Below, in pieces: positions 6,312 to 30,838 of a DNA stretch of 64,000 nucleotides. The notes beneath the pieces were generated by a model that was not told where the DNA came from, did not search any database, and saw nothing but the letters and a program-made list of their open reading frames with translations. A program made the position numbers and the translations under genes. Numbering within the stretch: position 1 is the stretch's first letter; every line of letters begins with the position of its first letter. Source of the DNA: Ancylobacter sp. WKF20 (lineage in GTDB: Bacteria; Pseudomonadota; Alphaproteobacteria; Rhizobiales; Xanthobacteraceae); the NCBI RefSeq assembly GCF_029760895.1, contig NZ_CP121679.1:496001-560000 (forward strand), written 5' to 3'.

Positions 6312-7456
6312 GCCCGGCTCCCCAGATGGGCCTTGCCGCGCGCGGCATCTTCAAGAGCTTCGCCAAGGGTAAAGCCGAGGTCATTACCGCCCTTGGTGGC
6401 CTCGACATCGAGATCGCGCCGGGCGAACTGCTCGCCATCACCGGCCCTTCGGGCGCCGGTAAATCCACCTTCTGCCGCATCCTCGCCGGGCTGGAACGCC
6501 CGGACGCGGGGAGCGTCACGCTCGCCGGGCGCAACCTCGCCGGCATTCCCCCGCAGCAGCGCCGGGTGGCGCTGATGTTCGAATCCTACGCGCTCTATCC
6601 GCACCTCACCGTGCGCGACAACGCGCTCTCGCCCTTGCAGGCGCCGGGCGGCCGTCTCGACACGGCCGAGGCCAACAAGCGCGTCGACGAGGTGCTGGAG
6701 CTCCTGGAAATCCGCCATCTCGGCGCGCGCCTGCCGGGTGCTCTCTCCGGCGGGCAGAAGCAGCGCGTCGCGCTGGCCCGCGCGCTGGTGCAGCAGCCGG
6801 ACCTGCTCATCCTCGACGAGCCGATCTCCCATCTCGACGCCAAGCTGCGCCACAAGCTGCGCGGGGAAATCCGCCGCCGCCTCGCCTCGCAGACCTCGCC
6901 CAGCCTGTGGGCGACGCCGGACGGCATGGAGGCGCTGTCGGTCGGTGACCGGGTGGTGGTGATGGACCAGGGCCGCGTCGAGCAGGTCGGCACGCCCGAG
7001 GAAATCTGGCAGCGCCCGGCCAGCGCCCGCGTCGCCCGGCTGCTCGGCGACCCGCCAATGAACCTGATCGACGGCGAACTGGTCCACGAGGCCGGCGCGC
7101 TGGTCTTCCGGCGCCGCGACCTCACCGTGCCGCTCACCGGCGCGCTGGCTGGCGCGGCGCAGAAGGCGGCCTCGTCCGCCGTCATTCTCGGCGTGCGCCC
7201 GGACGATGTCGGCGTCGTCCCGGAGGGGGCGGCCGACACGGCGGTGGCCGAGATCTATTCAAACGAACCTTTCGGCAAGCACGCCATCGTCACGCTCGAC
7301 CTCGGCGCGCTGCTCGCCAAGGCCAAGACGAGCATGGCGAACGCCGCCGCGCTCGGCGCGGATGCGGGCATCGGCCGGAAGGTGGGACTGGTTTTGCCGT
7401 GGGAGGGCCTCGCGCTCTTCGACGGGACGACGGGGCGCGCGCTGCCCGGCACCTGA
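6308..7456 (+). CDS. Sugar ABC transporter ATP-binding protein with degenerate H-loop, second of a pair
   Basis: The 382-residue ATPase has Walker A GPSGAGKST at residues 46-54, signature LSGGQ at 146-150, and Walker B LLILDEP at 166-172. Two catalytic switch positions are changed. The Q-loop is glutamate (Glu92 in MFESYALYP), and the H-loop reads WATPDGMEA, so proline 204 replaces the usual histidine. This suggests a heterodimeric transporter with one impaired ATP site, paired with the upstream ATPase, which keeps its H-loop histidine. A C-terminal MalK-like regulatory domain is present. The ATG overlaps the upstream stop, and the solute-binding protein gene follows after 39 bases. Confidence 0.87.
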   Translation: MSPAPQMGLAARGIFKSFAKGKAEVITALGGLDIEIAPGELLAITGPSGAGKSTFCRILAGLERPDAGSVTLAGRNLAGIPPQQRRVALMFESYALYPHLTVRDNALSPLQAPGGRLDTAEANKRVDEVLELLEIRHLGARLPGALSGGQKQRVALARALVQQPDLLILDEPISHLDAKLRHKLRGEIRRRLASQTSPSLWATPDGMEALSVGDRVVVMDQGRVEQVGTPEEIWQRPASARVARLLGDPPMNLIDGELVHEAGALVFRRRDLTVPLTGALAGAAQKAASSAVILGVRPDDVGVVPEGAADTAVAEIYSNEPFGKHAIVTLDLGALLAKAKTSMANAAALGADAGIGRKVGLVLPWEGLALFDGTTGRALPGT

Positions 7457-7495
7457 ACGAGCCGCTGAGATACGACCAACCAGAGGGAAAGTGCG

Positions 7496-14520: not shown

Positions 14521-15057
14521 ATGACCAGCACCAGCTCCACCGCCCCGCAGGTTCAGGACGAGATCGTGACCGCCTATCTCAGGCACTGGCGGGCACTGCT
14601 GGCCATGCTGCGCCGGCGCGTCGGCTCGCAGGAGCTGGCGGAGGATGCGCTGCAGGAGACCTGGCTGCGCCTCTCCACCCTGTCGCCGCAGACCCCGCCC
14701 ATCGCCGACCACCGCGCCTTCATCCTGCGCGTCGCCGGCAACATCGCCATCGACCTCGCCCGCCGCGAGAAGCGTCACACCGGCGGCGTCATCACCGACG
14801 ACATGGTGCTGAACGCCATTGCCGACACCTGCCCCTCGCCGGAAACCATCATCATCGACCGCGACCAGCTCCGCTTCCTCGTGCTGGCGCTCACGAAGCT
14901 TGCGCCCAAGCCCCGCGCGGCGCTGCTGTTCAACCGCTGCGACGGGCTGAGCCATCGCGAGATCGCCGGGCGGCTCAAGGTCTCCGAGAGCATGGTGGCG
15001 CGCTATCTCGCGCAGGCGCTGCGCCATTGCCGCGACTTCTTCCGCGACGAGCGATGA
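14521..15057 (+). CDS. ECF RNA polymerase sigma factor, FecI type (cassette 1)
   Basis: The 178-residue protein has sigma region 2 (about residues 10-80, with LAEDALQETWLRLS and the RAFILRVAGNIAIDLARR recognition helix) and sigma region 4 (about residues 115-175, with GLSHREIAGRLKVSESMVARYLAQAL). It has no membrane segment. With the FecR-like gene and the TonB-dependent receptor downstream, it forms a surface-signalling set. There the ligand-loaded receptor would signal through FecR to release this sigma factor, which then transcribes the receptor gene. ATG 14521 is the first credible start; the ribosome site is weak. Confidence 0.9.
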   Translation: MTSTSSTAPQVQDEIVTAYLRHWRALLAMLRRRVGSQELAEDALQETWLRLSTLSPQTPPIADHRAFILRVAGNIAIDLARREKRHTGGVITDDMVLNAIADTCPSPETIIIDRDQLRFLVLALTKLAPKPRAALLFNRCDGLSHREIAGRLKVSESMVARYLAQALRHCRDFFRDER

Positions 15058-15138: not shown

Positions 15139-16089
15139 ATGGCCAGCAGCGACCACGACCGGGCGGACATCGCGCTCAGCGACGAGGCCATTGAATGGCT
15201 GGTTCGCCTGCATTCCGGCCGGGCGACCGAAGCCGACCGCGCGGCCTTCATCCACTGGCGCCAGCGCGGCGAGGCGCATGAGATGGCGGCGCGCGAGGCG
15301 GAGGCGATCTGGCACGGGCTCGGCATTGCCGGCAGCGCGGTGCGCCGGCGCGAGCGGCAGGCCGGGCGCACCCGCGTCACCCGCCGCCTGGTGATCGGCG
15401 GTCTCGGCCTCGGCGCGGCGGGCCTCGCGCTGGAGCGCTCCGGCCTCATTGGCGCGCGGCTGTTCGCCGACCATGTCACCGGCGTCGGCGAGCGCCGCAC
15501 GCTGACTCTCGCCGATGGCTCGACCGTGCTGATGAACGCCTGCACCGCGCTCGGCGTCGATCTCGGGAAAAGCGAGCGGCGGCTCACCCTCCTGGAGGGG
15601 CAGGCGCTGTTCACCGTCGCGCCCGATGCCGCGCGTCCCTTCATCGTCGCGGCGGCGGGCGGTGCCACGCGGGCGGTGGGGACGGTGTTCGATGTGGACC
15701 TGCGTCCCGACGATGTCGTCGTCACCGTGCTGGAAGGGCGGGTTTCGGTGGCGCGCGATGCGGACGCGCAGGCGCCGACCCTCGCCGGGGCCGACCAGCA
15801 GGTGAGCTATTCGGCCACGCGCCTCTCGCCCGCCCGGCCGGTCGATGCGCGCATGGCGACCGCCTGGCGGCGCGGCAAGCTGATCGTCAACCAGCGCCCG
15901 CTGGCGGAAGTGGTGGCTGAGATCGAGCGTTACCGCCCCGGCACCATCCTCATCGCCAATCCCGCGCTGGGCGAGCTTGAGGTGACCGGCGTGTTCGACC
16001 TCGCCGGCGCCGACGCCATCCTCGACACGATCGAGCAGACATTGCCCGTGCGCATCACCCGCCTGCCGCTGGTGACCATCATCCGCTGA
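15139..16089 (+). CDS. FecR-family anti-sigma/sigma-regulatory membrane protein (cassette 1)
   Basis: The 316-residue protein has a cytoplasmic N-terminal DUF4880-type sigma-binding domain (residues 10-60, with AIEWLVRLHSG and DRAAFIHW). A membrane segment follows at about residues 80-105, preceded by paired arginines (TRRLVIGGLGLGAAGLAL). The periplasmic FecR domain (about 112-210) includes LADGSTVLMNACTALGVD and AVGTVFDV. A C-terminal STN-like segment ends near residue 316. It would receive the signal from the receptor's STN domain and control the sigma factor encoded 81 bases upstream. The paired arginines raise the possibility of twin-arginine export, as reported for some FecR proteins. 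Confidence 0.88.
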   Translation: MASSDHDRADIALSDEAIEWLVRLHSGRATEADRAAFIHWRQRGEAHEMAAREAEAIWHGLGIAGSAVRRRERQAGRTRVTRRLVIGGLGLGAAGLALERSGLIGARLFADHVTGVGERRTLTLADGSTVLMNACTALGVDLGKSERRLTLLEGQALFTVAPDAARPFIVAAAGGATRAVGTVFDVDLRPDDVVVTVLEGRVSVARDADAQAPTLAGADQQVSYSATRLSPARPVDARMATAWRRGKLIVNQRPLAEVVAEIERYRPGTILIANPALGELEVTGVFDLAGADAILDTIEQTLPVRITRLPLVTIIR

Positions 16090-16214: not shown

Positions 16215-19200
16215 ATGCAGGCCACCACCGACGCGACGCACCACCTCTCTCACGCGGCCCGCCAGAGCCGCCGCCGGAGCCGCCACGCGCGGCGCGTCGC
16301 GCTTCTCGCCTCGGTCGCCCTGAGTGTGATGGCCGCCGCCCCGGCCGCCCGCGCGCAGGGCACCTCGCCCGCGACCGCCACGGCGAGCCGCGCGCTCAGC
16401 CTCGATATTCGCGCCCAGCCGCTCGGCGCGGCGCTCACCGCCTTTGCCGATCAGGCGGGGCTGCGGCTGCTGTTTCCCTCCAGCCTCGTCGCCGGCCGCA
16501 CCAGCGCGGCGCTGATCGGCCGCTTCACCCGCGAGGAGGCGCTGGCCCGCCTGCTCGGCGGCACCGGGCTCAGCTACGCCTTCACCAGCCCCAACACGGT
16601 GCGCATCAGCGCCCCCGTCTCGAGCGAGGCGACCGCGTCCGACGGCACGATCGAGCTGGGCACCATCGACGTGAATGCCGGCGCCAATCCGGCCGATCGT
16701 CCCTATGAGACCCCCGGCTCGACCAACTACATCTCCAGCGCCGAGATCGAGCGCTTCCCGCCGCAGACCGCCGGTGCCCTGTTTCAGGGCACCCCGGGCG
16801 TCATCTCCGGCACCGGCAATAACGGCGCCTCCATCGACCCGAACATTCGCGGTCTTCAGGGCATGAACCGCGTCGCCGTCACCATCGACGGCGCCCAGCA
16901 GTCCACCTCGAGCTATCGCGGCTATTCGGGCGTCCAAAGCCGGACCTATGTCGATCCCGATCTCATCAGCGGCGTGAGCATCACCAAGGGGCCGGACGGC
17001 GCCGTCGCCGGGGCGATCGGTGGCACCATCGCCATGGAGACGCTGAATGTGGAGGATCTGCTGAACCCGAGCGAGAACTGGGCCCTGCGGCTGCGCACCG
17101 GGGTCAGCAGCAACAGCACCGCGCCGGTCATCGGTCAGGCCACGGCCAATTATGACGGCGGCAGCACTGAGATCAGCAATGGCAGCGTCGCTGTTGCCAC
17201 GCGCGAGGAGAATATCGACTTCGTCGCCGCCTTCGTCCGTCGCCAGACGGGAAACTACACCGCGGGCACGCAGGGGGCTCTAACCACCGTCGACTATCTC
17301 GGAGAGACCGCGCCACTATCCAATTATGGTTATGGGCAGGAGGTCTACAACACCTCGGAGGACGTCACCTCCGGTTTGCTCAAGGTTACGATGCGGCCCA
17401 CGGATGAGCAGGAGTTCGAGCTAGGCTATCTTTATTACGGCAATGATTTCGGCGAAGTGTCGCCGTCCGCAATCACCGCGGGCAATGGCGTAACCTTCCA
17501 GCTGCCGCTCAGTTCGGTGGCGGTCAACCAGGTCACAGCGTCCTATCACTACCAGCCCGTCGACACCGACATGGTCGACCTGAAGGTCAATGCGTATGCC
17601 TCCAGCATCGACGAGACCAATATGTTCGCGGCGCTGGATGTGGTCGAGCCGCTCCGGCAGCAATCGCAGAATGTCGGCATCAGCGCGCAGAACACGGCGC
17701 GGTTCGCGCTGGCGGAAAGGCCGGCGGCGCTGACCTTCGGCGGCAGCTATACCTATGAGAATGCCCGGCCTGACACAGCCTATGACTATACCGATCTCGC
17801 GCTCTGGGCCGTGCCGGCCAATGGCGAGCGCGAGGTCGCGTCGGTGTTTACCCGCCTGAAATGGGAGATGACCGACTGGCTGACGGCCGAGGCTGGACTT
17901 GAATACTTGACCTATACAACCGCCTTCAACGGAACGACGAGCTACAACGTTCCCGGAGAAGATTTCTCGGCCTATTCCGGCAGTGGGTTCAGCCCAAGTG
18001 CCCGCGTGACGGTGGCGCCGTTCGAGGGGTGGCAGCTTTACGCCCAGTATCAGAGCGGCATTCGTCCCCTGAGCGTGCGCGAGGTCAGCCAGACCCGCAG
18101 CGATCAGGTCTTCAATCCCGATCTTGAGGCGGAAGAGGCGAGCAACTGGGAGGTCGGCACCAACCTGCTGCGTCAGGACGTCTTCATGGCCGGCGACAAG
18201 GCGCGGCTGAAGCTGGCCTATTTCGACAACACCACCGACAACTATGTCGGCCGGCAGTTCGGTGGCGTCGGCTATATGAGCCTGTTCAACTACGATTTCG
18301 TGCGCTTCAAGGGTTATGAGCTGTCCGGCGGCTACGACATGGGTCGCTACTTCGCCGAGTTCGGCATCAACTATTACACCGATTTCGAGGCATGCCAGCA
18401 GAACGGGGTCTGCACCGATTACACGCTCTCGGCCGACTACCTGACCAACCAGATTCCCCCGCGCTTCACCGCTTCCTTCACCGCCGGCGCCCGCTTCTTC
18501 GACGAGCGGCTGACGGTCGGCGGCCGCGTTACCTATATGGGCGAGCGCCTCGCCGAGGTGCAGTCGGACGGTATGTACTTCACCTGGGTGACCAAGGTGT
18601 GGGAGCCCTACACCGTCATCGACGCTTTCGCGCAGTTCAAGATCAACAGCAACATCACGCTCGATGTCAGCGTCCAGAACCTGACCGACGCCTATTACGT
18701 CGACGCGCTCAACAACACCGACATGCCGGCGCCTGGCCGCACCTTCATGCTGTCGCTCACCGGCAAGCTGGGCGGAGAGGAAACGCTGGCGCCGCCGCGG
18801 ATCGCCCTGCCGGAAAACGACATCTGGACCGGCTTCTATGTCGGTGGTCATGCGGCCTATGGGCGTGGCTCGGTGACGGGCGAAACGACCTTCGCCGACG
18901 GCACGACCAACGCGCATGCGCTCGGCGAGTCCGCGGACCAGTCGTTCAGCGGCGGCATGTGGGGTGGCCAGTTCGGCTACACCTATCGGTTCGACAACAA
19001 TGTTGTGCTGGGTGTCGAGGCCGACATCTCCTTCTCCCAGATGGGTGCGTCGAGCCAGTTGGGCGCTTCCGAGACCGCAACGCTGATCGCGGCGGACATG
19101 CCGGAGTCGCAGACCGATTACGCGTTTGAATGGCTGGCGACGCTGCGCGCCCGCGCGGGCTATGCGGCGGGCCGCCTTATGGTCTACGGGACCGGCGGTC

Positions 19201-19601
19201 TGGCCTTCCTGCGGGAGTCCGAGCAACGCTCGCAATACATCGTGTCGACCGCGGGCGATCGCACGAATCTGGCATTTGGCGAGACCGATTCCGAAACGCG
19301 AACCGGTTTCTCACTCGGTGCCGGCGCCGAATACGCCATCAGCAACCGCTGGACGCTGAAGGCTGAATATCTTTATGCCGGCTTCGGCGTGGACGACTTC
19401 CTGTTTGGCGACGCCCGTTCCGGTGTCCTGCGCAGCACGACGGCGCGCGTGGCAAATGGCTGCATCTACGTCGGAACGCGCTGTATCACCCGCTATGTCA
19501 ATGTGACGACACCCGGCACCTCCGACACGGTGAGCGGCCGCACCGTGTCGAACGAGGCGGACCTCCAGCTCGTCAGGATCGGCCTCAATTACCGGTTCTA
19601 G
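16215..19601 (+). CDS. TonB-dependent receptor with STN domain fused to a C-terminal Omp25/31-like barrel (cassette 1)
   Basis: The 1128-residue protein reads as a multi-domain outer-membrane fusion. A basic signal peptide ends near residue 47. An STN signalling domain follows (about 55-135, with AQPLGAALTAFADQAGL and REEALARLLGGTGLSYAF), then a plug (about 150-275, with NIRGLQGMNRVAVTIDGA and ITKGPDGAVAGAIGG). The receptor barrel ends with GRTFMLSLTGKLGG at about residue 855, where ordinary receptors stop. After a linker of about 15 residues, an Omp25/Omp31-type domain runs from DIWTGFYVGGHAAYG (residue 869) to the terminal GLNYRF. A FRAP-like GIRPLSVREV and an NPNL-like FNPDLEAEEAS suggest a heme or hemoprotein receptor, but no histidine lies between them. 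A siderophore receptor is the main alternative. Confidence 0.88.
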   Translation: MQATTDATHHLSHAARQSRRRSRHARRVALLASVALSVMAAAPAARAQGTSPATATASRALSLDIRAQPLGAALTAFADQAGLRLLFPSSLVAGRTSAALIGRFTREEALARLLGGTGLSYAFTSPNTVRISAPVSSEATASDGTIELGTIDVNAGANPADRPYETPGSTNYISSAEIERFPPQTAGALFQGTPGVISGTGNNGASIDPNIRGLQGMNRVAVTIDGAQQSTSSYRGYSGVQSRTYVDPDLISGVSITKGPDGAVAGAIGGTIAMETLNVEDLLNPSENWALRLRTGVSSNSTAPVIGQATANYDGGSTEISNGSVAVATREENIDFVAAFVRRQTGNYTAGTQGALTTVDYLGETAPLSNYGYGQEVYNTSEDVTSGLLKVTMRPTDEQEFELGYLYYGNDFGEVSPSAITAGNGVTFQLPLSSVAVNQVTASYHYQPVDTDMVDLKVNAYASSIDETNMFAALDVVEPLRQQSQNVGISAQNTARFALAERPAALTFGGSYTYENARPDTAYDYTDLALWAVPANGEREVASVFTRLKWEMTDWLTAEAGLEYLTYTTAFNGTTSYNVPGEDFSAYSGSGFSPSARVTVAPFEGWQLYAQYQSGIRPLSVREVSQTRSDQVFNPDLEAEEASNWEVGTNLLRQDVFMAGDKARLKLAYFDNTTDNYVGRQFGGVGYMSLFNYDFVRFKGYELSGGYDMGRYFAEFGINYYTDFEACQQNGVCTDYTLSADYLTNQIPPRFTASFTAGARFFDERLTVGGRVTYMGERLAEVQSDGMYFTWVTKVWEPYTVIDAFAQFKINSNITLDVSVQNLTDAYYVDALNNTDMPAPGRTFMLSLTGKLGGEETLAPPRIALPENDIWTGFYVGGHAAYGRGSVTGETTFADGTTNAHALGESADQSFSGGMWGGQFGYTYRFDNNVVLGVEADISFSQMGASSQLGASETATLIAADMPESQTDYAFEWLATLRARAGYAAGRLMVYGTGGLAFLRESEQRSQYIVSTAGDRTNLAFGETDSETRTGFSLGAGAEYAISNRWTLKAEYLYAGFGVDDFLFGDARSGVLRSTTARVANGCIYVGTRCITRYVNVTTPGTSDTVSGRTVSNEADLQLVRIGLNYRF

Positions 19602-19663
19602 ACGGCAGGCACCGCCCCGGACGTGACGCCCCGCGTCGTGCGGCCGGGGCCATTGCGTGTCCG

Positions 19664-19697
19664 CAGATTTAATCTGTAATCAATCTAAATCATTGAT
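19664..19697. promoter_or_regulatory. Tandem dyads upstream of the second sigma gene
   Basis: CAGATT-T-AATCTG (19664-19676) is a perfect palindrome. ATCAAT (19679-19684) and ATTGAT (19692-19697) form a second inverted repeat of 19 bp in total. Both lie in the only AT-rich stretch before the second sigma gene and are candidate metal-regulator operators. They do not match the TTTAGA/TCTAAA dyad of cassette 1, so the two cassettes may be regulated differently. Confidence 0.4.
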
Positions 19698-19869
19698 GTT
19701 GCATGATAAAACGGATTGGCTAAGGGTAGCTGAACCTCTCTTTCGGGAGCCGCCCGTACCGGGTGACCGGCGGCGCGCGGCGTCCCAGGTGATCAGCCTT
19801 GGCCCTTCGCGCGATCAGTCCCCGGACCCCCCCGATCTTGCCCGCCACTGGCGCGGGCGGGGGGTACGC

Positions 19870-20376
19870 GTGAGTCTCAATCTCTGGCTTGCCGACCTCT
19901 ACCGGCGCCACCACCGCGATCTCGTGCGCTTCGCCGCCCGGCTGGTGGGCGACCGCGATGGCGGCGAGGAGGTGGTGCAGAATGCCTATCTGCGGCTCGC
20001 CGGCCGCCCCGCCCAGGCGGCGGTGATCGAGCATCCCAAGACCTATGCCTTCGCGGCCACCCGCACCGCCGCCATCGACTTCACCGCCCGCCGCCATGCC
20101 GAATGGCTCTACCGCGTCGATATCGAGGAGATCGACGCACTGGCCGTGACGGGCGATCCTGAAGGCCCGCTGCATCACCGCCGCCGCATCGTCCGGCTCG
20201 CCGTGCTGCTCAACGAACTGCCGGCGGCCTGCCAGACCGCCTTCGTGATGAACAAGCTGGAAGGGCGCGGGCATCGTGAGATCGCCGGCCATCTCGGCGT
20301 GTCCGTCAGCATGGTGGAAAAGCACATATTGCGCGCGCTCATCCACTGCCGCGACCTGATGCGGGATGAGGCGTGA
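19870..20376 (+). CDS. ECF RNA polymerase sigma factor, FecI type (cassette 2)
   Basis: The 168-residue protein has region 2 (LADLYRRHHRDLVRFAARLV near the N-terminus, then GEEVVQNAYLRLAGR) and region 4 (KLEGRGHREIAGHLGVSVSM, then VEKHILRALIHCRDLM). The frame is open back to 19657, but those 71 codons cross the AT-rich dyads and encode unrelated sequence. I therefore start at GTG 19870, where sigma homology begins, after a G-rich ribosome site. It pairs with the FecR-like gene at 20468 and the receptor gene at 21555. It is clearly divergent from the sigma factor of cassette 1, so cross-talk is not a given. Confidence 0.87.
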   Translation: MSLNLWLADLYRRHHRDLVRFAARLVGDRDGGEEVVQNAYLRLAGRPAQAAVIEHPKTYAFAATRTAAIDFTARRHAEWLYRVDIEEIDALAVTGDPEGPLHHRRRIVRLAVLLNELPAACQTAFVMNKLEGRGHREIAGHLGVSVSMVEKHILRALIHCRDLMRDEA

Positions 20377-20467
20377 GGCGGGTGTTGAGGATTTCTCCGC
20401 CGCGCGCCGTCTATAGGGACAAGCCGCCGAGCCACTCCGGCCCGTGCGCCGTTCTGTGAGCCTGTCC

Positions 20468-21436
20468 ATGGATCGTCCTTCCCATCCGCCCCGTGCGCTG
20501 TCCGACGAGGCGCTCGGCTTCATCGTGCGGCTCAATTCCGGTGAGGCGCAGCCCGCCGACCGCGCCGCTTTCACCGCCTGGCGGGAGCTGAGCGCCGATC
20601 ATGAGGCGGCCGCGCGCGAGGCCGAGCAGCTCTGGGGCGAGGCGTCGGAGCTGCATCAGGATCCGCGGACCGGCCTGATCCGCCCTGGTGCCTCCGCTCG
20701 CCCGCGTCGAAGCGGCCTGTCGCGCCGGGCAATGCTGGGCGGCGCCGCCGGTCTTGGCGTCGTGGGGGCGGGCGGGGCGTGGATGGCGGGGCTTCTCGGC
20801 GCACGGCCGGACATCGCCACAGGCACGGGCGAGGTGCGCACGGTGACGCTCGCCGACCGCTCGCGCGTCACGCTGAACGCCCGCAGCGCCCTCGCGCTGG
20901 ATTTCTCCCCGGCGCGGCGGGGCGTGCAGCTGCTCGCCGGGCAGGCCTTCTTCGAGGTGGCCCCCGATCCGGCACGCCCCTTCGAGGTGGCGGCGGGCGC
21001 GGGCCGCGTGCGTGCCCTCGGCACCGCTTTCGACATCGACGCCAATCGCGGCGATGGCTCGCTCGCGGTCGGCGTCACCGAACATGCCGTCGAGGTGACC
21101 GGCACCACCGTCCTGACGCTGAACGCCGGCGAGCGTGTCGAGATCGCCGGCAATGGCCGCCTTGGCCCCGTCACCCTTCAGCCCGCCGACGTCACCCTCG
21201 CCTGGCGCTCGGGCCTGTTCATCGCCGAGGATCGCCCGCTCGCCGACATCCTCGCGGCGCTCCGGCCCTACGATGCCGGCTGGATCCTCGCGCGCGGGGA
21301 GGGGATCAAGGCGCTCCGGGTCAATGCGGTGCTGGACCTGCGCACCCCCGACCTGTCGCTCGCCGCCCTCGCGCAGGGCCTGCCGATCCGCGTGATGCAG
21401 CTCTCGCCCTACCTCACCGTCGTGTCGGCGAGCTGA
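20468..21436 (+). CDS. FecR-family anti-sigma/sigma-regulatory membrane protein (cassette 2)
   Basis: The 322-residue protein has the DUF4880-type sigma-binding start (EALGFIVRLNSGEAQPADRAAF). A membrane segment with a twin-arginine-like SRRAMLGGAAGLGVVGAGG stretch follows, then a periplasmic FecR domain (VTLADRSRVTLNARSALALD, RALGTAFDIDA) and a C-terminal STN-like part (RPLADILAALRPYD). It is the same architecture as the cassette 1 protein with considerable sequence change. ATG 20468 is preferred; the upstream GTGs at 20444 and 20456 are in frame. It lies 91 bases after the sigma gene and 118 bases before the receptor. Confidence 0.87.
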   Translation: MDRPSHPPRALSDEALGFIVRLNSGEAQPADRAAFTAWRELSADHEAAAREAEQLWGEASELHQDPRTGLIRPGASARPRRSGLSRRAMLGGAAGLGVVGAGGAWMAGLLGARPDIATGTGEVRTVTLADRSRVTLNARSALALDFSPARRGVQLLAGQAFFEVAPDPARPFEVAAGAGRVRALGTAFDIDANRGDGSLAVGVTEHAVEVTGTTVLTLNAGERVEIAGNGRLGPVTLQPADVTLAWRSGLFIAEDRPLADILAALRPYDAGWILARGEGIKALRVNAVLDLRTPDLSLAALAQGLPIRVMQLSPYLTVVSAS

Positions 21437-21554
21437 CCCGCAAAAAAATCGCACCGGCCACTGAGGATTTTCCACGCCGCTCCGGTCTTAGCCAGCGAGG
21501 GACCAGACGACCCGGCAAGGCACGGCCCTCGTCACGCAAGCGGAGACAGGACAG

Positions 21555-24500
21555 ATGGCGGGCTTTACGGGGCGAACGGGGACACAGCGGGGCGGCATCT
21601 TGCGCGCCGATATGCTGCGGGCGGGGCTTATCGCCTCCACCATGCTGATGCCGGTGCCCTTCATCGGCGCGCAGGCGCAGACGACTACGGCCGCGCGGGT
21701 GAGCTTCGACATTCCCGCCCAGCCGCTTGGCGCCGCGCTCACCATTTTCGCCCGGCAGACCGGCATCAAATTCGCCTATCCCGCCGCGCTCACCAGCGGG
21801 CGCACCTCCCCGGCGCTGCGCGGCAGCTTTTCGGCGGAGGAAGCGCTCGCCCGTCTGCTCGGCGGCAGCGGCCTCATTTACGCCTTCACCAGCCCGACCA
21901 GCGTGACCATTTCCGCCCCGCCGCCGGCCGGCGCGGAGGCCGCTGCCGCAGCCGGCGGCACGATCGAGCTTGGCACCATCGACGTGAATGCCGGCACCAG
22001 CCCGGAAAACCGCCCCTATGAGACGCCGGGATCGACCAACTACATCTCCGCCGCCGAGATCGAGCGTTTTCCCGGCCTGACCTCGGGCGCGATCTTCCAG
22101 AGCACGCCCGGCGTGTTCACCGGCTCCAGCAATAATGGCGGCTCGATCGACCCGAATATTCGCGGTCTTCAGGGCATGAACCGCGTCGCCACGACGATTG
22201 ACGGCTCGCAGCAGGCGACCTCCTCCTATCGCGGCTATAATGGCGTTGATAACCGCACCTATATCGACCCCGACCTGATCTCCGGCATCACCATCACCAA
22301 GGGGCCGGATGGCTCGGTCGCGGGAGCCATCGGCGGCACCATCGCGGCGGAAACGCTGGGGGTGGCCGATATTCTCGACCCCGGCCAGACCTATGGCGCC
22401 CGCGTGCGTGCCGGCCTGACCTCGGGCCTCACCGACCCGGTGATCGGCCAATCGGGCGTCACCGAGAGCGGCGGCGACGCGCCCGGCCCGACCAATATCA
22501 GCCTGGCGCTCGCCACCACCTCGGAGAACATCGACTTCGTCGCCGCCTTCGTGCGCCGCAAGACCGGCAATTATTCGGCCGGCACCAACGGTTCGCTGAC
22601 CTATGACGGCGTCGACGGGCCGCAGCGCCTGTCCAGCTATGGCTATGGGCAGGAGGTCTACAACACCTCGGAGGACGTGACCTCCGTGCTGCTCAAGACC
22701 GTGCTGCGCCCGACCGACGAGCAGGAAATCAAGCTCGCCTACATGCATTACGACAATGTCTATGGCGAGGTGACGCCGGGCGTCGTCAATGTCGACAATT
22801 ACATGCTGCAAATGCCGCTCAACTCGGTCTCGCTCGACCAAGCGACGGTGCATTACCACTACAAGCCGGTGGAGACCGATCTCGTCGACATCCACGCCAA
22901 CGCCTATGTGTCGAACATCGACGAGACGGTGAACTACGCCGCCTATTCCACCGCGACGCCGGTGCCGCAGAACGCGGTGAATGCCGGCATCTCCGCCTCC
23001 AACACCTCGCTGTTCAGCCTCGCCTCGACCCCGCTCGCCGTCACCTTCGGCGGTTCCTACCGGCAGGAGAGCGGCACGCCGGTGGGCGACCTTCTGGTCG
23101 ACTACGGCAACGGCGCCATCCCGCCGGATGCGCAGGCGCAGGTCGCCAGCGTCTTCGGCCGGGCCAAATGGGAGCCGTGGTCCTGGCTCGCGGTGGTGGG
23201 CGAGCTGCAATACATCAACTATCAGAGCACCTTCCTGGGCGTGGAGAGCTGGTCCTATGAGGGGGAGGACTTCGCCACCTATGCCGGCGATGGGGTGAGC
23301 CCGTCGATCAGCGTCACCCTGAGCCCGGCGGAGGGCTGGCAGGTCTACGCGCAGTACCAGACCGGCATTCGCCCGCCGGGGCTGCGCGAGGTCAGCATGA
23401 CCCGCTATGAGCAGCTGTTCAATCCCGACCTCGAGGCCGAAAACGCCCGCAATTTCGAGGTCGGCGTCAATTTCCTGCGTGAGAACCTGTTCAAGCCGGG
23501 CGACGAGGGCAAGCTGAAGCTCGCCTATTTCGACAACAAGACCTACAACTATATCGGACGGGATTATGAGAACGCCCGGATGATCCTGTTCAATTATGAC
23601 TATGTGCAGTTTCAGGGCATCGAATTCTCCGGTGGTTACGATGCCGGCTGGGGCTTCGTTGATTTCGGCATCAATTACTACACCGGATTCAATGCCTGCC
23701 TCGATGACGGGGAGTGCATCGACTACACGCTTCAGTCGGACTATTTGACCAATCAGGTGCCGCCGGAATTCACCGCCTCGGTCACCGCCGGCCTGCGGTT
23801 CTGGGATGACCGTGTCACCGTCGGCGGGCGCGTCACCTATGTCGGCGAGCGCCTCGCCGAGCTCTATCAGGCCGAGGACGATCCCTATTTCTTCATCACC
23901 AAGGCTTGGGCGCCCTATACGGTGGTCGACCTGTTCGGCAGTTGGAAGATCAACGATCATCTGACGCTCGATGTCGGCGTGCAGAACCTGCTCGACGCCT
24001 ATTATGTCGACGCGCTCAACAACACCGACATGCCCGCGCCGGGCCGCACCATCACCGTCGGGCTCACCGGCAAGCTGGGCGGGGAGGGGCCGCTGCCGGC
24101 GCTGACCAAGAGCTTTCCCAAGCCCAACGGCCCGTGGACCGGCCCCTATGCCGGCGTGAATGCCGGCTTCGGCTATGGCCGGATCACCGGCAGCACCACG
24201 GCGGGCGATGGCAGCGCCAATGCGGTGGCGGCGAGCGAATCCGCCGACCAGAGCCTGGAGGGCATGATCGGTGGCTTCCAGGGCGGCTTCAACTACCAGT
24301 TCGCCAATAATCTCGTTGTTGGCATCGAGGCCGATTTCTCCTGGATGCAGATGCAGGACGAGGCGGTGATCTATTCCACCGAGACCGCCGCGCTCATGGA
24401 GCGCGACGCCCGCGAGGCCCGTATCAAGTACCAGTATGACTGGCTCTCCACCGTGCGCGCCCGCGTCGGCTACGCCGCCGGCAGCTGGATGGTCTATGGC

Positions 24501-24947
24501 ACGGGCGGTCTCGCCTTCCTGAAGGAGCGGGAGCAGCGCGGCCAGTATCTCGCCGCCGCCAACCCGGCCTACAGCTCCACCGTGCCCACCCCCAGCAGCA
24601 CCTCGCTCGCCTTCACCGAGACGGCGGACAATGTGCGCACCGGCTTCTCCGTCGGCGCCGGCGCCGAATATGCCTTCGGCAGCAACTGGTCGCTGAAGGC
24701 GGAGTATCTCTATGCCGGCTTCGGCGCGGAGGACTTCCTGTTCGGTAATGGCCGGGGCGGCGTGAGCCGCGATTACCAGATCCGCACGCTGTGCCGGCGC
24801 GGCCAGGTCACGGCGATCTGCAGCGGCGCCTCGACCGGCTATGTCTATCAGGGCTTCAACGGCGCGGGCGACGATGTGATCGGCCGCACCGCCTCCAACG
24901 AGGCCAATCTCCAGCTCTTCCGCATCGGCCTGAACTACCGGTTCTGA
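21555..24947 (+). CDS. TonB-dependent receptor with STN domain fused to a C-terminal Omp25/31-like barrel (cassette 2)
   Basis: This 1130-residue protein is a paralogue of the cassette 1 receptor with the same domain order: signal peptide ending near AQAQ (about residue 40), STN domain (AQPLGAALTIFARQTGIKFAY), plug (NIRGLQGMNRVATTIDGSQQ, ITKGPDGSVAGAIGG), and receptor barrel ending at GRTITVGLTGKLGG near residue 838. A linker follows, then an Omp25/31-like barrel from WTGPYAGVNAGFGYG (about residue 860) to the terminal GLNYRF. FRAP-like GIRPPGLREV and NPNL-like FNPDLEAENAR motifs are kept, again without an intervening histidine. Conservation of the fusion in both copies argues against an assembly or frameshift artefact. 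The ligand is probably heme or an iron chelate. Confidence 0.88.
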   Translation: MAGFTGRTGTQRGGILRADMLRAGLIASTMLMPVPFIGAQAQTTTAARVSFDIPAQPLGAALTIFARQTGIKFAYPAALTSGRTSPALRGSFSAEEALARLLGGSGLIYAFTSPTSVTISAPPPAGAEAAAAAGGTIELGTIDVNAGTSPENRPYETPGSTNYISAAEIERFPGLTSGAIFQSTPGVFTGSSNNGGSIDPNIRGLQGMNRVATTIDGSQQATSSYRGYNGVDNRTYIDPDLISGITITKGPDGSVAGAIGGTIAAETLGVADILDPGQTYGARVRAGLTSGLTDPVIGQSGVTESGGDAPGPTNISLALATTSENIDFVAAFVRRKTGNYSAGTNGSLTYDGVDGPQRLSSYGYGQEVYNTSEDVTSVLLKTVLRPTDEQEIKLAYMHYDNVYGEVTPGVVNVDNYMLQMPLNSVSLDQATVHYHYKPVETDLVDIHANAYVSNIDETVNYAAYSTATPVPQNAVNAGISASNTSLFSLASTPLAVTFGGSYRQESGTPVGDLLVDYGNGAIPPDAQAQVASVFGRAKWEPWSWLAVVGELQYINYQSTFLGVESWSYEGEDFATYAGDGVSPSISVTLSPAEGWQVYAQYQTGIRPPGLREVSMTRYEQLFNPDLEAENARNFEVGVNFLRENLFKPGDEGKLKLAYFDNKTYNYIGRDYENARMILFNYDYVQFQGIEFSGGYDAGWGFVDFGINYYTGFNACLDDGECIDYTLQSDYLTNQVPPEFTASVTAGLRFWDDRVTVGGRVTYVGERLAELYQAEDDPYFFITKAWAPYTVVDLFGSWKINDHLTLDVGVQNLLDAYYVDALNNTDMPAPGRTITVGLTGKLGGEGPLPALTKSFPKPNGPWTGPYAGVNAGFGYGRITGSTTAGDGSANAVAASESADQSLEGMIGGFQGGFNYQFANNLVVGIEADFSWMQMQDEAVIYSTETAALMERDAREARIKYQYDWLSTVRARVGYAAGSWMVYGTGGLAFLKEREQRGQYLAAANPAYSSTVPTPSSTSLAFTETADNVRTGFSVGAGAEYAFGSNWSLKAEYLYAGFGAEDFLFGNGRGGVSRDYQIRTLCRRGQVTAICSGASTGYVYQGFNGAGDDVIGRTASNEANLQLFRIGLNYRF

Positions 24948-25036
24948 AGCGCCCGCGCGCCCTGCCGCTGTGGATGCGGGGCGCGTGGGTCCGTCTTGGC
25001 GATGGCCCGGCCCGCCCTGCGCCGTTAGGCTGGGGC

Positions 25037-25756
25037 GTGTCCGACGATTTCACCGAATCCACGCTGGCCTATTGGCAGGAACTGCACCCCGGCGTGCCGG
25101 CGGGTGTCGCGGCCGCGCCGCCCTATCGGCGGGGCTATCCGGTGACGCTGCCGGATGGGCGGGTGCTGGTCCTGCCGCTGCGCCGCCTGCCGAATTCCGA
25201 TCAGGCGGTCGCCTCGCTGATCGCCAATCAGGCGTCGCATGAGGTGGTCGCCGCGCTGACCGAGGCGATGGCCGTGGAGGCCCACGCGCTCGGCGCCGAG
25301 ATCATTGCCGGCCTGCCGACACTCGGCCTCGCCTTCGCCGCCGGGGTGGCAGAACGGCTCGGCCAGACCCGCTATGTGCCGCTCGGCTATTCCCGCAAGT
25401 TCTGGTACGCCGACGCGCTCTCCGAGCCGGTGTCCTCCATCACCTCGCCCGAGGCGGGCAAGCGCCTGCGGCTCGACCCGAACCTGCTGCCGCTCATCGA
25501 AGGCCGGCGCGTCGTCTTGGTCGACGACGCCATCTCCACCGGCGCGACGGCGGTGGCCGCCTGCCGGCTGCTGGCCCGCGCGGGCGCTGAGATCGCCGGC
25601 ATGGTGGTGGCGATGAAGCAGACCAATCGCTGGGTCGCCGCCATGGCGGATGTTCTCCCGCGCGAGACGATCCGCGCCGCCTATGGCTGCCCGCGCTTCA
25701 CCCTGCGCGACGATGGCTGGTGGCCGGAGGAAGCGACGCGGCCGGAGGTTCCGTAG
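25037..25756 (+). CDS. Phosphoribosyltransferase family protein
   Basis: The 239-residue protein has the type I PRTase PRPP-binding motif VVLVDDAISTGAT at about residues 160-172, preceded by the flexible-loop region YVPLGYSRKFWY. It lacks the features of PyrE, Apt or ComF that would fix the base or substrate. The open frame extends upstream into the receptor gene, so I start at GTG 25037, where the family-like sequence SDDFTESTLAYWQELHPG begins. It stands 89 bases after the receptor stop. A purine-salvage role beside the molybdenum hydroxylases is possible but unsupported. Confidence 0.75.
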   Translation: MSDDFTESTLAYWQELHPGVPAGVAAAPPYRRGYPVTLPDGRVLVLPLRRLPNSDQAVASLIANQASHEVVAALTEAMAVEAHALGAEIIAGLPTLGLAFAAGVAERLGQTRYVPLGYSRKFWYADALSEPVSSITSPEAGKRLRLDPNLLPLIEGRRVVLVDDAISTGATAVAACRLLARAGAEIAGMVVAMKQTNRWVAAMADVLPRETIRAAYGCPRFTLRDDGWWPEEATRPEVP

Positions 25757-25991: not shown

Positions 25992-28280
25992 TTAGCCCCG
26001 CGCCGCTTGAACCGCCTCCCACACCCGCGACGGGGTGAGCGGCATGTCGAGATGGGTGATGCCGAGGTCCGACAGCGCATCCACCACGGCGTTGACGAAG
26101 GCGGGCGGGGCGCCGATGGCGCCGGCTTCCCCGGCGCCCTTGATGCCGAGCGGGTTGGTCGTGCAGGGGGTGTTCTGCGTCGTCACGGAAAAGAACGGCA
26201 GGTCGTCGGCGCGCGGCAGGCCGTAATCCATGAAGGAACCGGACAGCATCTGCCCGGTCTCGGGGTCGTACACCGTGCGCTCGGTCATCGCCTGGCCGAT
26301 GCCCTGGGCGATGCCGCCATGCACCTGACCGGAGAGCACCAGCGGGTTCAGCGTGCGGCCGAAATCATCGACCACCGTGTAGCGCTCGACGGCGATGAGC
26401 CCGGTCTCCGGGTCCACCGCGACCTCGCAAATATGCGCGCCATTGGGGAAGGTGCCGATCATCTGTTCGAAATCGCCGACGCCCTCCAGCCCGCCGACCT
26501 TGGCGGCGACATCGACGATGCCGACATGCCGGTTGGTGCCCGGCACGCGGAACAGCCCCTCGTCGAAATCGAGCTCGCGCTCGTCGACCTCCAGGAGCTT
26601 GGCCGCCGCCTGGCTCGCTTTCGCCAGCAGCGCCCCGGCGGCGAGCTTGAGCGCCCCGCCGCCATGCACCATGGAGCGCGAGGCGACCGTGCCGCCGGCC
26701 GACGGAATGGGATGCGCCGTGTCGCCGGTCTTCACCGTGATGCGGGCGGGGTCGAGGCCCAGCGCCTCGGCGGTCATCTGCACATAGGTGGTCTCGTGAC
26801 CCTGCCCGGTGGACTGGGTGCCGACATGCACGGTCACCGCGCCATCCGCGGCGATCTCCACGCGCGCGCCCTCCTTGCCGGGCACGCCGGTGCGCTCGAT
26901 GTAATAGGCAAGGCCGATGCCCCGCAGCGTGCCGTCGCTCGCGGCCCGCCGCGCCGGGAAACCGGCCCAGTCGGCTTCCTCCATGGCGCGATGCATCACC
27001 CGGACGAAATCGCCGGAATCATAGGTCACGCCGGTCGCGGTCCGGTGCGGCATCTCTTCGGGCGGGATCATGTTGAGCGCGCGTAAGGCGTCCGGCCCGA
27101 TGCCGATCTCGCGCGCCGCCTTGTCCACCAGCCGCTCGATCAGATAGGCCGCCTCCGGCCGCCCGGCGCCGCGATAGGCGTCGATCGGCGCGTTATTGGT
27201 GTAGGCGATGCGCACATCGGTCGCCACCACCGGGATCTTGTAGACGCCCGGCGCCATGGGCGGGCCGGAGAGTGTCGGGCAATAGACGCCGAAGGCCGAC
27301 AGCGCCCCGCCGGCGCTCGCCAGCGTCTCCACCTTCAGCGCGGTGAAGCGGTTCTCGGCGTCGAGCCCGAGCCACGCCTTCGAGGCGTTGTCGCGGCCCT
27401 GCGTGTCCGACAGGAAGGCTTCCGCCCGGCTCGACTGCCAGCGCACGGGACGGCCGAGCTTGCGCGCGGCATAAAGCACCAGCGCCTGTTCGGGGTAGGG
27501 GATCGCCTTCATGCCGAAGCCGCCGCCGACATCGGGGGTGATGACGCGCAGGCGGTCCGCCGGCAGGCCGAACACGCCCTCGAACATGAAGTCGCGGATC
27601 ATGTGGCTGCCCTGTGAGCCCGTCACCAGCGTGAACTGGCCGGCCTCGGCCTCATAGAGCCCGATGGCGTTGCGCGGCTCCATGGAGGAGACGACGATGC
27701 GGTTGTTGATCAGCTCCACCTCGACGACCCGCGCCGAGGCTTTGAGCGCGGCATCGGCCGCGTCGATCTCGCCGAGCCGCCAGTGCAGCGCCAGATTGCC
27801 CGGCGCCTCCTCGAACAACTCCGGCGCATCCGGCGCCAGCGCGCTCGCGGGCTCGACGACGGTGGGCAGGTCGTCAATGTCGAGCATCACCGCTTCCGCT
27901 GCGTCCTGCGCCGCGCGGGCGGAGGTCGCGACGACAAAGGCGACGGGCTCGCCGAGATAGCGTACCTTGCCGGCGGCCAGCAGCGTGTGAGCGGGAAGCG
28001 GCATTTTCTCGCCGCTCACATGGTCGAGCACGATGATGACCGGGAGTGCGCCGATGCCGTCGGCGGCGAGGTCATCGGCGGTGTAGACCGCCAGCACCTC
28101 CTCCATCTCGCGCGCGGCGCTCACATCGACGCCGTTGAGCACGCCATGGGCGACGGGGGCGCGCACCACGGCGGCGAACAACTCGCCCTCATAATGAATG
28201 TCGTCGGTGAAGCGGCCGGTGCCGGTGATGAACCGGAGATCCTCGACCCGCCGGAAGGGTTGACCCAGACCGAACTTCAT
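25992..28280 (-). CDS. Molybdenum hydroxylase large subunit, CoxL/XdhB-like, form II loop
   Basis: The 762-residue protein belongs to the xanthine oxidase family that binds the molybdopterin cytosine dinucleotide cofactor. It starts with GLGQPFRRVEDLRFITGTGRF and has the cofactor motifs DVGGGFGMK and TGQGHETTY. The active-site loop reads AYRGAGR, the form typical of so-called form II CODH-like enzymes rather than the AYxCSFR loop of true aerobic CO dehydrogenase. The catalytic glutamate is present in GAGEAG near the C-terminus. GAGGGAGC precedes ATG 28280. It is divergent from a second large-subunit gene and has no small or medium subunit beside it. Its partners may be the G/S/M genes at 43996-45793. 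Substrate unknown; CO oxidation is unlikely. Confidence 0.85.
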   Translation of the reverse strand: MKFGLGQPFRRVEDLRFITGTGRFTDDIHYEGELFAAVVRAPVAHGVLNGVDVSAAREMEEVLAVYTADDLAADGIGALPVIIVLDHVSGEKMPLPAHTLLAAGKVRYLGEPVAFVVATSARAAQDAAEAVMLDIDDLPTVVEPASALAPDAPELFEEAPGNLALHWRLGEIDAADAALKASARVVEVELINNRIVVSSMEPRNAIGLYEAEAGQFTLVTGSQGSHMIRDFMFEGVFGLPADRLRVITPDVGGGFGMKAIPYPEQALVLYAARKLGRPVRWQSSRAEAFLSDTQGRDNASKAWLGLDAENRFTALKVETLASAGGALSAFGVYCPTLSGPPMAPGVYKIPVVATDVRIAYTNNAPIDAYRGAGRPEAAYLIERLVDKAAREIGIGPDALRALNMIPPEEMPHRTATGVTYDSGDFVRVMHRAMEEADWAGFPARRAASDGTLRGIGLAYYIERTGVPGKEGARVEIAADGAVTVHVGTQSTGQGHETTYVQMTAEALGLDPARITVKTGDTAHPIPSAGGTVASRSMVHGGGALKLAAGALLAKASQAAAKLLEVDERELDFDEGLFRVPGTNRHVGIVDVAAKVGGLEGVGDFEQMIGTFPNGAHICEVAVDPETGLIAVERYTVVDDFGRTLNPLVLSGQVHGGIAQGIGQAMTERTVYDPETGQMLSGSFMDYGLPRADDLPFFSVTTQNTPCTTNPLGIKGAGEAGAIGAPPAFVNAVVDALSDLGITHLDMPLTPSRVWEAVQAARG

Positions 28281-28348: not shown

Positions 28349-28429
28349 TTTGCTCAAAGTCCAGCACATATCGTAGGATAAGCCCGCATCGTGAATAAGA
28401 TAGCAGTTTCAACGTGAGGTTTGAGGCGC

Positions 28430-30838
28430 GTGTCGTCAGGGGCGTTCGAGACCGGTTCGCCGGCGGTTGACGGGCAGGGCAAGGCCGCGCGCGGTGTCGG
28501 CGCGTCGCTGCCTCGCAAGGAAGATGCCCGGCTCATGGAAGGGCGCGGGCGGTTCATTGGCGACATGCGATTTCCGGGCCAGCTGGAGGCCGCCTTCCTG
28601 CGCGCGACCCTCGCCCATGCCCGCATCACCGCCATCCACATTCCCGCCCATCTGAAGGGCCGCGCCTTCACCCATGAGGACATGGTGGGGGTGAAGGACA
28701 TTCTCGCCAAGACCGGCCTGCCGGGCTTCCGCGTCTCCACCCAGCCCTCGCTGGCGAGCGGCAAGGTGCGCTTCGTCGGCGAGCCGGTGGTGATGGTGCT
28801 GGCGGATACCCGCGCCGAGGCGGAGGATCTGCTGGAAGAGATCCAGGTCGAGTACGAGGAACTGCCGGCCAATCACGACATGCTGCGGTCCGTCACCCCG
28901 GAGGCCGCGCGCATCCATGAGGACTGGCCGGACAACGTCTTCCTCGTCTCGCAGGCCGAGAAGGATTTCAGCGCGACGCTGGCGGATGCGCCGATCAAGG
29001 TGACGCGCGAGGTGCGCACCAGCCGGCAGTGCATGGCGCCGCTGGAGGGCAAGGGTTGCATCGCCGTCTCCGAGCGCCACACCGAGCAGCTTCATCTGTG
29101 GACCTCGACGCAGATGCCGCACATCGTCCGCTCCGGCCTTGCCGAGTGCCTCGGGTTGGACGAGCGGAAAATCCGCGTCGTCGCCCCCGATGTCGGCGGC
29201 GGCTTCGGCTGGAAGGGGCTGCTTCAGCCCGAGGAAGTGTGCTGCGCCTGGGCGGCGCTCAAGCTCGACCGGCCGATCAAATGGCTGGAGGACCGGCGCG
29301 AGCACCTGATCGCTGCCGCCAATTGCCGCGAGCACCATTACATCATGACCGCCTATGCCGACGCCGATGGCCATTTGCTCGGCTTCGAGGCCTCCGCCCA
29401 TGTCGATGCCGGCGCCTATTCGGTCTACCCGTTCTCCGCCTGCCTTGAGGGCGCGCAGATCGTCTCCAATCTGCCCGGCCCATATAATTTGCCGGCCTAT
29501 CGCGCCCGCGCTTTGTCGGTGTGCTCCAACAAGCCGCCCATCGTGCCCTATCGCGGCGTCGCCCGCACCGGCGTGTGCACGGCGATGGAGTTGATGATCG
29601 ACGCGGTCGCCCGCGCCGCCGGCATCGAGCCCTATGAGGTGCGCCTGCGCAACCTCGTGCGGCCCGACCAGATGCCCTTCCGGTCCATCACCGGCAAGGA
29701 TTTCGACATGGGCGACTATCCCGAAAGCCTGCGCCGCGCCCACGCCATGATCGGCCATGACGCCGTTCGCGCCCGCCAGCAGCAGGGTGAAGCGGATGGG
29801 CGGCGCATTGGGCTCGGCTACGCCATCTATTGCGAGCAGGGCGCCCACGGCACCTCGGTCTATCATGGCTGGGGCATCCCCATGGTGCCCGGCTTCGAGC
29901 AATGCGGCGCGCGCCTCACCCCGGACGGCACGCTGGAGGTGCGCGTCGGCAATCAGAGCCACGGCCAGTCCATGGAGACCACGCTGGCGCAGGTCGCCTG
30001 CGAGGTGCTGGGCATCGACCCGGAGCTGGTCAATGTCGTGCATGGCGACACAGCGATGACGCCCTATTCCACCGGCACCTGGGGCTCGCGCTCCGGCGTG
30101 ATGGCGGGCGGCGCGGTGGCGAGCGCCTGCGACAAGCTGGGCGAGCGCATCAAGCGCATCGGCGCGCATCTGCTACAGGCCCCACTCGATGCCGTGCGGA
30201 TCGAGGACGCGAAGGTCGTCGGCCCGTCCGGCTCCGTCACTTTCCGCGAGATCGCCCACACCTTCTACCGCGCGCCGCAGAACCTGCCGGTTGATGCCGA
30301 CCCGGACGGGCTGGATCTTGTCGCCGGCTACCGGCCGGTGGTGGATACCGGCACCTTCTCCTACGCCACCCATGCCTGCGTAATCGCGGTGGAGCCGGAG
30401 ACCGGCGAGGTGGAGATCCTCGATTACGTCATCGTCGAGGATGGCGGCGTGCTGCTGAACCCGATGGTGGTCGACGGCCAGATCTATGGCGGCACCGCGC
30501 AGGGCATCGGCACCGCGCTCTATGAGGAGATGGTCTATGACGAGAACGGCCAGCCGCTCGCCTCGACCTTCGCCGATTATCTCCTGCCCGGCGCCAATGA
30601 AATGCCGCCGGTGAGGATCCAGCATATGGAAACGCCCTCGCCCAACACCCGCTTCGGGCAGAAGGGCATCGGCGAGGGCGGCGCCATCGCCCCGCCCGCC
30701 GCCATCGGCAACGCCATCAATGACGCGCTGGCCGATCTCGGTGTGGAACTCACCGTCTCGCCGATGACGCCGCGCCGGGTGCGCGAGGCCGTGCTCGCCG
30801 CGCGTGCGCGCCTGCATTCCGGGGAGGGCGCCGCGTGA
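28430..30838 (+). CDS. Molybdenum hydroxylase large subunit with unusual active-site loop
   Basis: The protein (802 residues from GTG 28430; TTG 28421 is also in frame) is a second xanthine oxidase-family large subunit. It has VGASLPRKEDARLMEGRGRF near the start, DVGGGFGWKG as a cofactor motif, SHGQSMETT in the MCD-binding part, and the catalytic glutamate in GIGEGG. The active-site loop reads PYRGVARTG rather than AYRGAGR (form II) or AYxCSFR (CO dehydrogenase), so the substrate pocket is probably different. The next three subunit genes are cotranscribed: the FAD subunit start overlaps its stop by four bases. It should form a complete L-M-S enzyme that hydroxylates an aromatic, heterocyclic or aldehyde substrate. 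Substrate not identifiable. Confidence 0.83.
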   Translation: MSSGAFETGSPAVDGQGKAARGVGASLPRKEDARLMEGRGRFIGDMRFPGQLEAAFLRATLAHARITAIHIPAHLKGRAFTHEDMVGVKDILAKTGLPGFRVSTQPSLASGKVRFVGEPVVMVLADTRAEAEDLLEEIQVEYEELPANHDMLRSVTPEAARIHEDWPDNVFLVSQAEKDFSATLADAPIKVTREVRTSRQCMAPLEGKGCIAVSERHTEQLHLWTSTQMPHIVRSGLAECLGLDERKIRVVAPDVGGGFGWKGLLQPEEVCCAWAALKLDRPIKWLEDRREHLIAAANCREHHYIMTAYADADGHLLGFEASAHVDAGAYSVYPFSACLEGAQIVSNLPGPYNLPAYRARALSVCSNKPPIVPYRGVARTGVCTAMELMIDAVARAAGIEPYEVRLRNLVRPDQMPFRSITGKDFDMGDYPESLRRAHAMIGHDAVRARQQQGEADGRRIGLGYAIYCEQGAHGTSVYHGWGIPMVPGFEQCGARLTPDGTLEVRVGNQSHGQSMETTLAQVACEVLGIDPELVNVVHGDTAMTPYSTGTWGSRSGVMAGGAVASACDKLGERIKRIGAHLLQAPLDAVRIEDAKVVGPSGSVTFREIAHTFYRAPQNLPVDADPDGLDLVAGYRPVVDTGTFSYATHACVIAVEPETGEVEILDYVIVEDGGVLLNPMVVDGQIYGGTAQGIGTALYEEMVYDENGQPLASTFADYLLPGANEMPPVRIQHMETPSPNTRFGQKGIGEGGAIAPPAAIGNAINDALADLGVELTVSPMTPRRVREAVLAARARLHSGEGAA

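Follow-up and report, generated by a model that had tools for sequence, protein, structure and literature searches.

Do the two TonB-dependent receptors encoded in a 64,000-nucleotide stretch of the Ancylobacter sp. WKF20 genome (NZ_CP121679.1, positions 496,001 to 560,000; hereafter the window) each carry a second membrane barrel on the same chain? The original prediction, made from the letters of the window, claimed that both receptors continue in frame past the final strand of the TonB-dependent barrel into an Omp25/Omp31-type domain. Indeed, the two open reading frames were found on the + strand at 16215..19601 (copy 1, 1128 amino acids) and 21555..24947 (copy 2, 1130 amino acids), and neither contained an internal stop. 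As judged from a structure model of copy 1, each gene very probably encodes a single outer-membrane chain in which two separate barrels are joined by a short linker, predicted to lie in the periplasm.

Four Pfam domains were over the gathering cut-off in both copies, namely STN (residues 85-133 in copy 1 and 72-121 in copy 2), Plug (164-271 and 155-262), TonB_dep_Rec_b-barrel (403-823 and 417-812), and OMP_b-brl (869-1057 and 858-1056; hereafter the OMP domain). The Plug (PF07715) and barrel (PF00593) matches place both proteins among the TonB-dependent receptors. OMP_b-brl (PF13505) scored 58.2 and 49.0 bits against a cut-off of 28.7, with the match ending at profile position 155 of 175. Full-length structure prediction, which had been proposed as a check, was carried out for copy 1 with AlphaFold2 and gave 22 strands up to residue 852, a linker of low confidence, and eight further strands (predicted local distance difference test, pLDDT, 83). 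In copy 1, the STN signalling domain (PF07660) occupied residues 61-132 of the model (16395..16610), the Plug domain residues 159-276 (16689..17042), the 22-strand barrel residues 289-852 (17079..18770), and the 8-strand Omp25/31-type barrel residues 871-1128 (18825..19598), whose enlarged last outer loop with a Cys pair and an extra hairpin was at residues 1065-1108 (19407..19538). The 18-residue linker between the barrels (18771..18824) was delimited by a junction alignment and had pLDDT below 50 at residues 856-865. In copy 2, the 19-residue linker (24078..24134) was placed by the junction alignment and the Omp25/31-type barrel (24135..24944) by PF13505.

Structural alignment of HasR, the hemophore receptor of Serratia marcescens (PDB 3csl), with copy 1 covered residues 158-852 and reached HasR's own final residue, so that HasR terminates together with the first barrel. 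Furthermore, all 50 matches listed in the structural alignment ended at residue 852. Since the 22-strand part is complete at this residue and is followed by the linker and then by eight strands, two barrels are indicated rather than one large barrel, in line with the earlier claim that a 22-strand gated receptor and an 8-strand barrel share a single chain. By this prediction, copy 1 is a multi-barrel protein in the sense of having at least two separate membrane barrels in one chain (22 + 8 strands). The predicted template-modelling score of the model was only 0.70, a point against the overall explanation given below. A single barrel of about 30 strands, formed by the C-terminal part together with the receptor strands, had been named as one outcome that would overturn the proposal. 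We rejected it as very improbable on the copy 1 model and the structural alignment, because the 22-strand part can be superimposed on closed receptors that are complete, the low-confidence linker precedes the eight strands in the model, and 23 unfused relatives terminate exactly at the last receptor strand.

It is scarcely credible that the join itself is an artefact, through a missed stop, an assembly error or chance read-through. The genome was assembled as one 4.63 Mb contig, in which both receptor frames are open with no stop codon at the junction, the ratio of nonsynonymous to synonymous substitution rates (dN/dS) of the OMP part was below 1, and the same frame was found in relatives, the conservation on which we ruled an artefactual join out. 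To collect relatives, contigs of GTDB genomes were scanned with ten fused sequences; 319 of the resulting 322 stretches were confirmed, and the best 80 were kept, corresponding to 78 loci. Three of these were dropped (L052 and L053, cut by contig ends, and L097, frameshifted near its end), and some genomes supplied two or three of the 75 usable loci. The reading frame was kept across the join in 52 of the 75, so that the conserved junction does not reflect a lost stop codon, and the frame stopped at the last receptor strand in the other 23.

All 23 unfused proteins ended at F, exactly 12 residues past the P of a conserved P-G-R. In the 54 fused proteins (the 52 and the two window copies), the receptor was followed by 18-32 linker residues, with Gly, Pro, Ser, Leu, and Ala abundant, and then by the W-x-G start of the second barrel, and every chain ended in F; for two rows of the junction alignment, the end of the receptor was assigned manually. 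The last residue of the internal receptor strand was F in 31 fused proteins, L in 16, I in 6, and Y in one. Loss of the aromatic end residue, which is true of both window copies, was consequently rejected as a hallmark of the fusion, since 31 of the 54 keep F. All four domains were over the cut-off in eight of eight diverse relatives scanned.

The layout is kept in many alphaproteobacteria, and its distribution is patchy. The 52 fused loci belonged to Hyphomicrobiales (45), Sphingomonadales (3), and Caulobacterales (3), with one unplaced, and carried 23 genus labels, one of them "none" (22 named alphaproteobacterial genera). Plasmid records added Ketogulonicigenium and Novosphingobium as carriers; 8 of the 803 matching records in the plasmid search had a single region covering 80% or more of the query. 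Within the genus, a fused-type barrel was present in 10 of 30 genomes, in one of which (G028) it was split at contig ends, and G018 had orthologues of both receptor copies as near neighbours. Fused frames of at least 1100 amino acids occurred in at least 11 of 198 genomes of the family and at least 3 of 397 genomes of the order. Among 385 genomes of the class and 398 of the phylum, a fused-type match (E 1e-30, with up to six candidates per genome scored) was obtained only in the window's own genome, and these two counts are weak, since other orders did yield fused genes in the locus scan. Two further PF13505 matches in G000 were rejected as extra fusions: that at 2304785 is an autotransporter (PF03797), and that at 2597999 appeared autotransporter-like by eye. 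A fused receptor in G015 (C1:4494813-4497371) is apparently a broken copy; it lacks the N-terminal part, and a matching N-terminal stretch lies about 19 kb off on the other strand (4516321-4517106). In G076, an OMP match of 114.7 bits was located in a 1080-amino-acid frame.

By their substitution rates, the receptor and OMP domains are both under purifying selection, the OMP domain somewhat less so, since dN/dS was below 1 in each. Compared with G018, copy 1 gave 0.222 for the receptor, 0.469 for the linker (16 codons), and 0.274 for the OMP domain; copy 2 gave 0.123 for the receptor and 0.339 for the OMP domain, with the linker unchanged over 19 codons. In a receptor tree built by a quick method (77 rows), fused and unfused proteins were intermixed with seven changes needed, and a single fused clade was rejected (approximately unbiased (AU) test, p 0.0003). 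The OMP tree contained the 54 fused barrels and 23 standalone barrels from the own genome and relatives, which were the nearest matches and the own genome's matches. One branch divided fused from standalone barrels with modest support (78/76; 81% of 200 bootstrap trees), and 50 fused rows formed a well-supported group (99/94). Three clades comprised identical rows in both trees, namely an 11-row set of Bradyrhizobium, Afipia, and Azorhizobium, a 5-row set of Enterovirga, Rhodopseudomonas, and Afipia, and the 9-row set of the window.

The deeper branches disagreed between the two trees. In the OMP tree, the 5-row set grouped with L087, L089, and L090; in the receptor tree, it fell in a large mixed clade, and L089 and L090 grouped with unfused rows. 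The OMP tree also set the divergent rows L093, L094, L100, and L107 apart, and three of these were flagged as long branches. Among the 50 fused rows, OMP and receptor distances were correlated overall (r 0.60, with none of 5000 permutations as high), and no correlation was seen over the 847 distant pairs (r -0.19). Deep coinheritance therefore rests on the clades common to both trees and not on the distances. The simplest account of these sequences would be one old fusion, followed by coinheritance and repeated loss; alternatively, receptors may have swapped OMP domains, or the outlying rows may have arisen by fusions of their own. A split-gene origin, with the second barrel as a neighbouring gene, was rejected, as no OMP-like open reading frame (at least 60 amino acids, E 1e-3) was found up to 5 kb on each side of any of the 23 unfused loci. 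A tblastn search for remnants gave a best E of 0.004, for a match inside the receptor gene.

Both receptor genes belong to consecutive + strand cassettes, each consisting of an extracytoplasmic function (ECF) sigma factor, a FecR-type regulator, and the receptor. The FecI-like sigma factors (14521..15057 in cassette 1; 19657..20376, start codon uncertain, in cassette 2) had Sigma70_r2 and Sigma70_r4_2 above the cut-off, and the FecR-type anti-sigma regulators (15139..16089 and 20444..21436) had FecR and DUF4880 above it. An STN domain with an adjacent FecR-type regulator and ECF sigma factor is the Fec-type arrangement of cell-surface signalling, in which substrate binding outside would turn on the receptor's own gene, and by analogy with the known Fec and Has systems we regard it as highly likely that the receptors are of this type. 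As in FecA/FecR/FecI, STN is on the receptor, and FecR and a FecI-type sigma factor are encoded upstream; in contrast to FecA, the receptor barrel here is heme-type and carries a second barrel. The identities between the cassettes were only 57% for the receptors (over 1125 columns), 40% for FecR, and 34% for the sigma factors, so that the cassettes are old paralogues and not a recent duplication.

The substrate of the receptor family is probably heme or a heme protein, to judge from its nearest relatives and neighbouring genes. HasR was the nearest solved relative by sequence and by fold, and the nearest structures were HasR, ChuA, and ShuA. Copy 1 also scored 324.2 bits with TIGR01785 (TonB-hemin), above the cut-off of 316.85. 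Of 48 distinct fused loci, 17 had a heme oxygenase gene within about 5 kb, as did 11 of the 23 unfused loci; the corresponding numbers were 19 and 7 for TonB, 9 and 3 for ExbB, 7 and 3 for ExbD, 7 and 2 for Rrf2, and 7 and 3 for DUF454. In these counts, families were named by Pfam, four near-duplicate fused loci were left out, and no random-locus control was included; because the 4.63 Mb genome has one match to the heme oxygenase family PF01126, we estimate that few stretches of this length would contain a heme oxygenase by chance.

Several results weigh against heme. Copy 2 scored 284.9 bits with TIGR01785, under the cut-off, and the window contained no relative of heme oxygenase, TonB, ExbBD, Rrf2, or DUF454. 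The single PF01126 match of the genome adjoins an unfused 741-amino-acid receptor (2406257-2407726), other heme-degrading types not having been searched; the support for heme is thus good for the family and weaker for the two window copies. That locus, outside the window (G000:C1:2405631-2407726, - strand), is apparently an ordinary heme uptake locus. The heme ligands of HasR are given as His189 and His603 in PMC6981324. When these positions were transferred via pairwise alignment, that of the plug residue His189 was Tyr in all 77 rows (54 fused and 23 unfused), and that of His603, in barrel loop L7, was variable with no conserved His; accordingly, these receptors are not HasR orthologues in the heme-ligand sense. 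The invariant plug Tyr falls in a model segment with pLDDT below 50. On Ancylobacter polymorphus plasmid pB (L039:5941-12844), the fused receptor gene lies directly against convergent fhuF and fhuB; a siderophore receptor gene lies further along, past these genes. The missing histidines and the fhuF/fhuB neighbourhood would suit a ferric siderophore or some other complex of iron or another metal, and FecI/FecR cassettes are generally known to serve siderophore receptors as well. We nevertheless consider a non-heme substrate rather unlikely, given the three nearest structures, the heme oxygenase near 17 of the 48 fused relatives, and the fact that Tyr can bind heme.

The second barrel is of the same domain kind (PF13505) as the Omp25/Omp31 family, which includes Brucella Omp31 and Bartonella Pap31/HbpA, and shares a W-x-G start and a Y-[RK]-F type end with the standalone barrels compared. 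Members of that family are standalone, whereas this one forms the C-terminal domain of a receptor. A single-sequence search of the OMP domain against the PDB gave no match at E 0.1, and a profile search gave six sequences (E 0.018 to 0.67), TodX first and Opa60 and OmpA included. The last outer loop was about twice as long as in standalone barrels, with a median of 69 residues (range 24-93) in the 54 fused proteins against 30.5 (20-35) in 22 standalone barrels, and it held exactly two Cys in 35 of the 54 and in none of the 22; two standalone barrels had two Cys outside this loop. The 22 were taken from 25 after leaving out two duplicates and one barrel with an extended end, and the Omp31 and Pap31 sequences were not included. 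Hence, the predicted complete Omp25/Omp31-type domain is correct as to the type of barrel and has to be amended as to the last outer loop, which is greatly enlarged.

Omp31 has been reported to bind hemin, and Pap31/HbpA, its relative in Bartonella, is described as heme-binding and as an adhesin (PMC8877253). A heme-binding barrel on a heme receptor is therefore a natural hypothesis. The second barrel might work outside the cell, where its enlarged last loop, beside the receptor mouth, would bind heme or its carrier and raise the local supply to the receptor, serving as an integral collector instead of a secreted hemophore. We put forward this role of putative heme collector tentatively. What tells against it is that the Cys pair is absent from the loop in 19 of the 54 fused proteins, and that no second barrel, and no OMP-like open reading frame in the flanks, is present in the 23 unfused relatives, of which 11 lie near a heme oxygenase. 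The suggestion of two pores is doubtful, because 8-strand barrels are usually closed; the other half of that suggestion, a receptor plus an accessory or adhesin barrel, is preferred.

The main rival to a collector is a structural part without a ligand, which would anchor, stabilise or position the receptor or provide a strong C-terminal signal for assembly. It is consistent with the F that ends all 54 fused proteins as it does the 23 unfused receptors, while the internal strand does not always end in F, as if the end signal had been shifted to the second barrel, and with an OMP dN/dS somewhat above that of the receptor in both copies. An anchor, however, has no obvious need for a loop of double length with a Cys pair, and the unfused relatives do without one; we think this role rather unlikely. 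Less probable still is an adhesin or protein-binding module for a surface, polymer, host or neighbour protein, unrelated to uptake. Pap31 is reported to be a fibronectin and heparin adhesin (PMC8877253), and some carriers are animal- or plant-associated, with a bovine lymph node as one source; many carriers, however, are in genera that are mainly free-living, and the place of the barrel in a receptor chain with iron-type regulation speaks more for a role in uptake. Taken together, we lean towards a predicted HasR-like signalling heme receptor with a fused collector barrel as the best explanation overall. It is a more speculative proposal that these proteins may form a receptor class with its own fused surface heme collector, performing on a single chain the job that HasA/HasR divide between two proteins, and acquired or lost as a module across Alphaproteobacteria.

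To our knowledge, little experimental work has been done on two-barrel chains. Such chains have been described as a class (Solan et al. 2021, PNAS, as presented in PMC8592465 and PMC11494523), and the earlier statement that no family of this architecture was described does not hold for multi-barrel proteins as a whole. The authors of one paper of 2021 that cites this work were aware of no solved structure of the type (PMC8592465). GfcD/YjbH likewise have more than one membrane barrel per chain; in the descriptions available, GfcD is modelled with 12 + 13 strands, has a periplasmic domain between them and serves polysaccharide export, whereas here 22 + 8 strands, a short linker, and TonB uptake are combined. 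In searches of open-access literature, no listed paper described a TonB receptor fused to an 8-strand barrel in its title or abstract opening, and none was found on the combination with an Omp25/31 barrel, which is weak evidence of absence. The present family is conserved and sigma-controlled, with one barrel of well-known job, one that is removable, and natural relatives without it. It could be used to test by what route the assembly machinery folds two barrels of a single chain, and whether nutrient capture or signalling gains from a small barrel fused to the receptor.

Another likely two-barrel layout was observed in relatives from the same family, in which an N-terminal OMP_b-brl domain is followed by an OprB porin domain in a chain of about 670-750 amino acids. 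Four such chains were found (L149:1989-4151 and 6251-8500, + strand; L150:288-2300, - strand; L151:2277-4526, + strand), two identified by Pfam over the cut-off and two by an OMP match and similar ends. Tandem Omp25-type matches at G445:C6:509737-510990, with the same 515-amino-acid open frame length, may represent an Omp25-Omp25 double barrel. Finally, two large open reading frames downstream in the window (25992-28280, - strand, and 28421-30838, + strand) resembled, by eye only, xanthine-dehydrogenase-type molybdopterin subunits, and a phosphoribosyltransferase (PF00156) was located near them at about 24827-25756.

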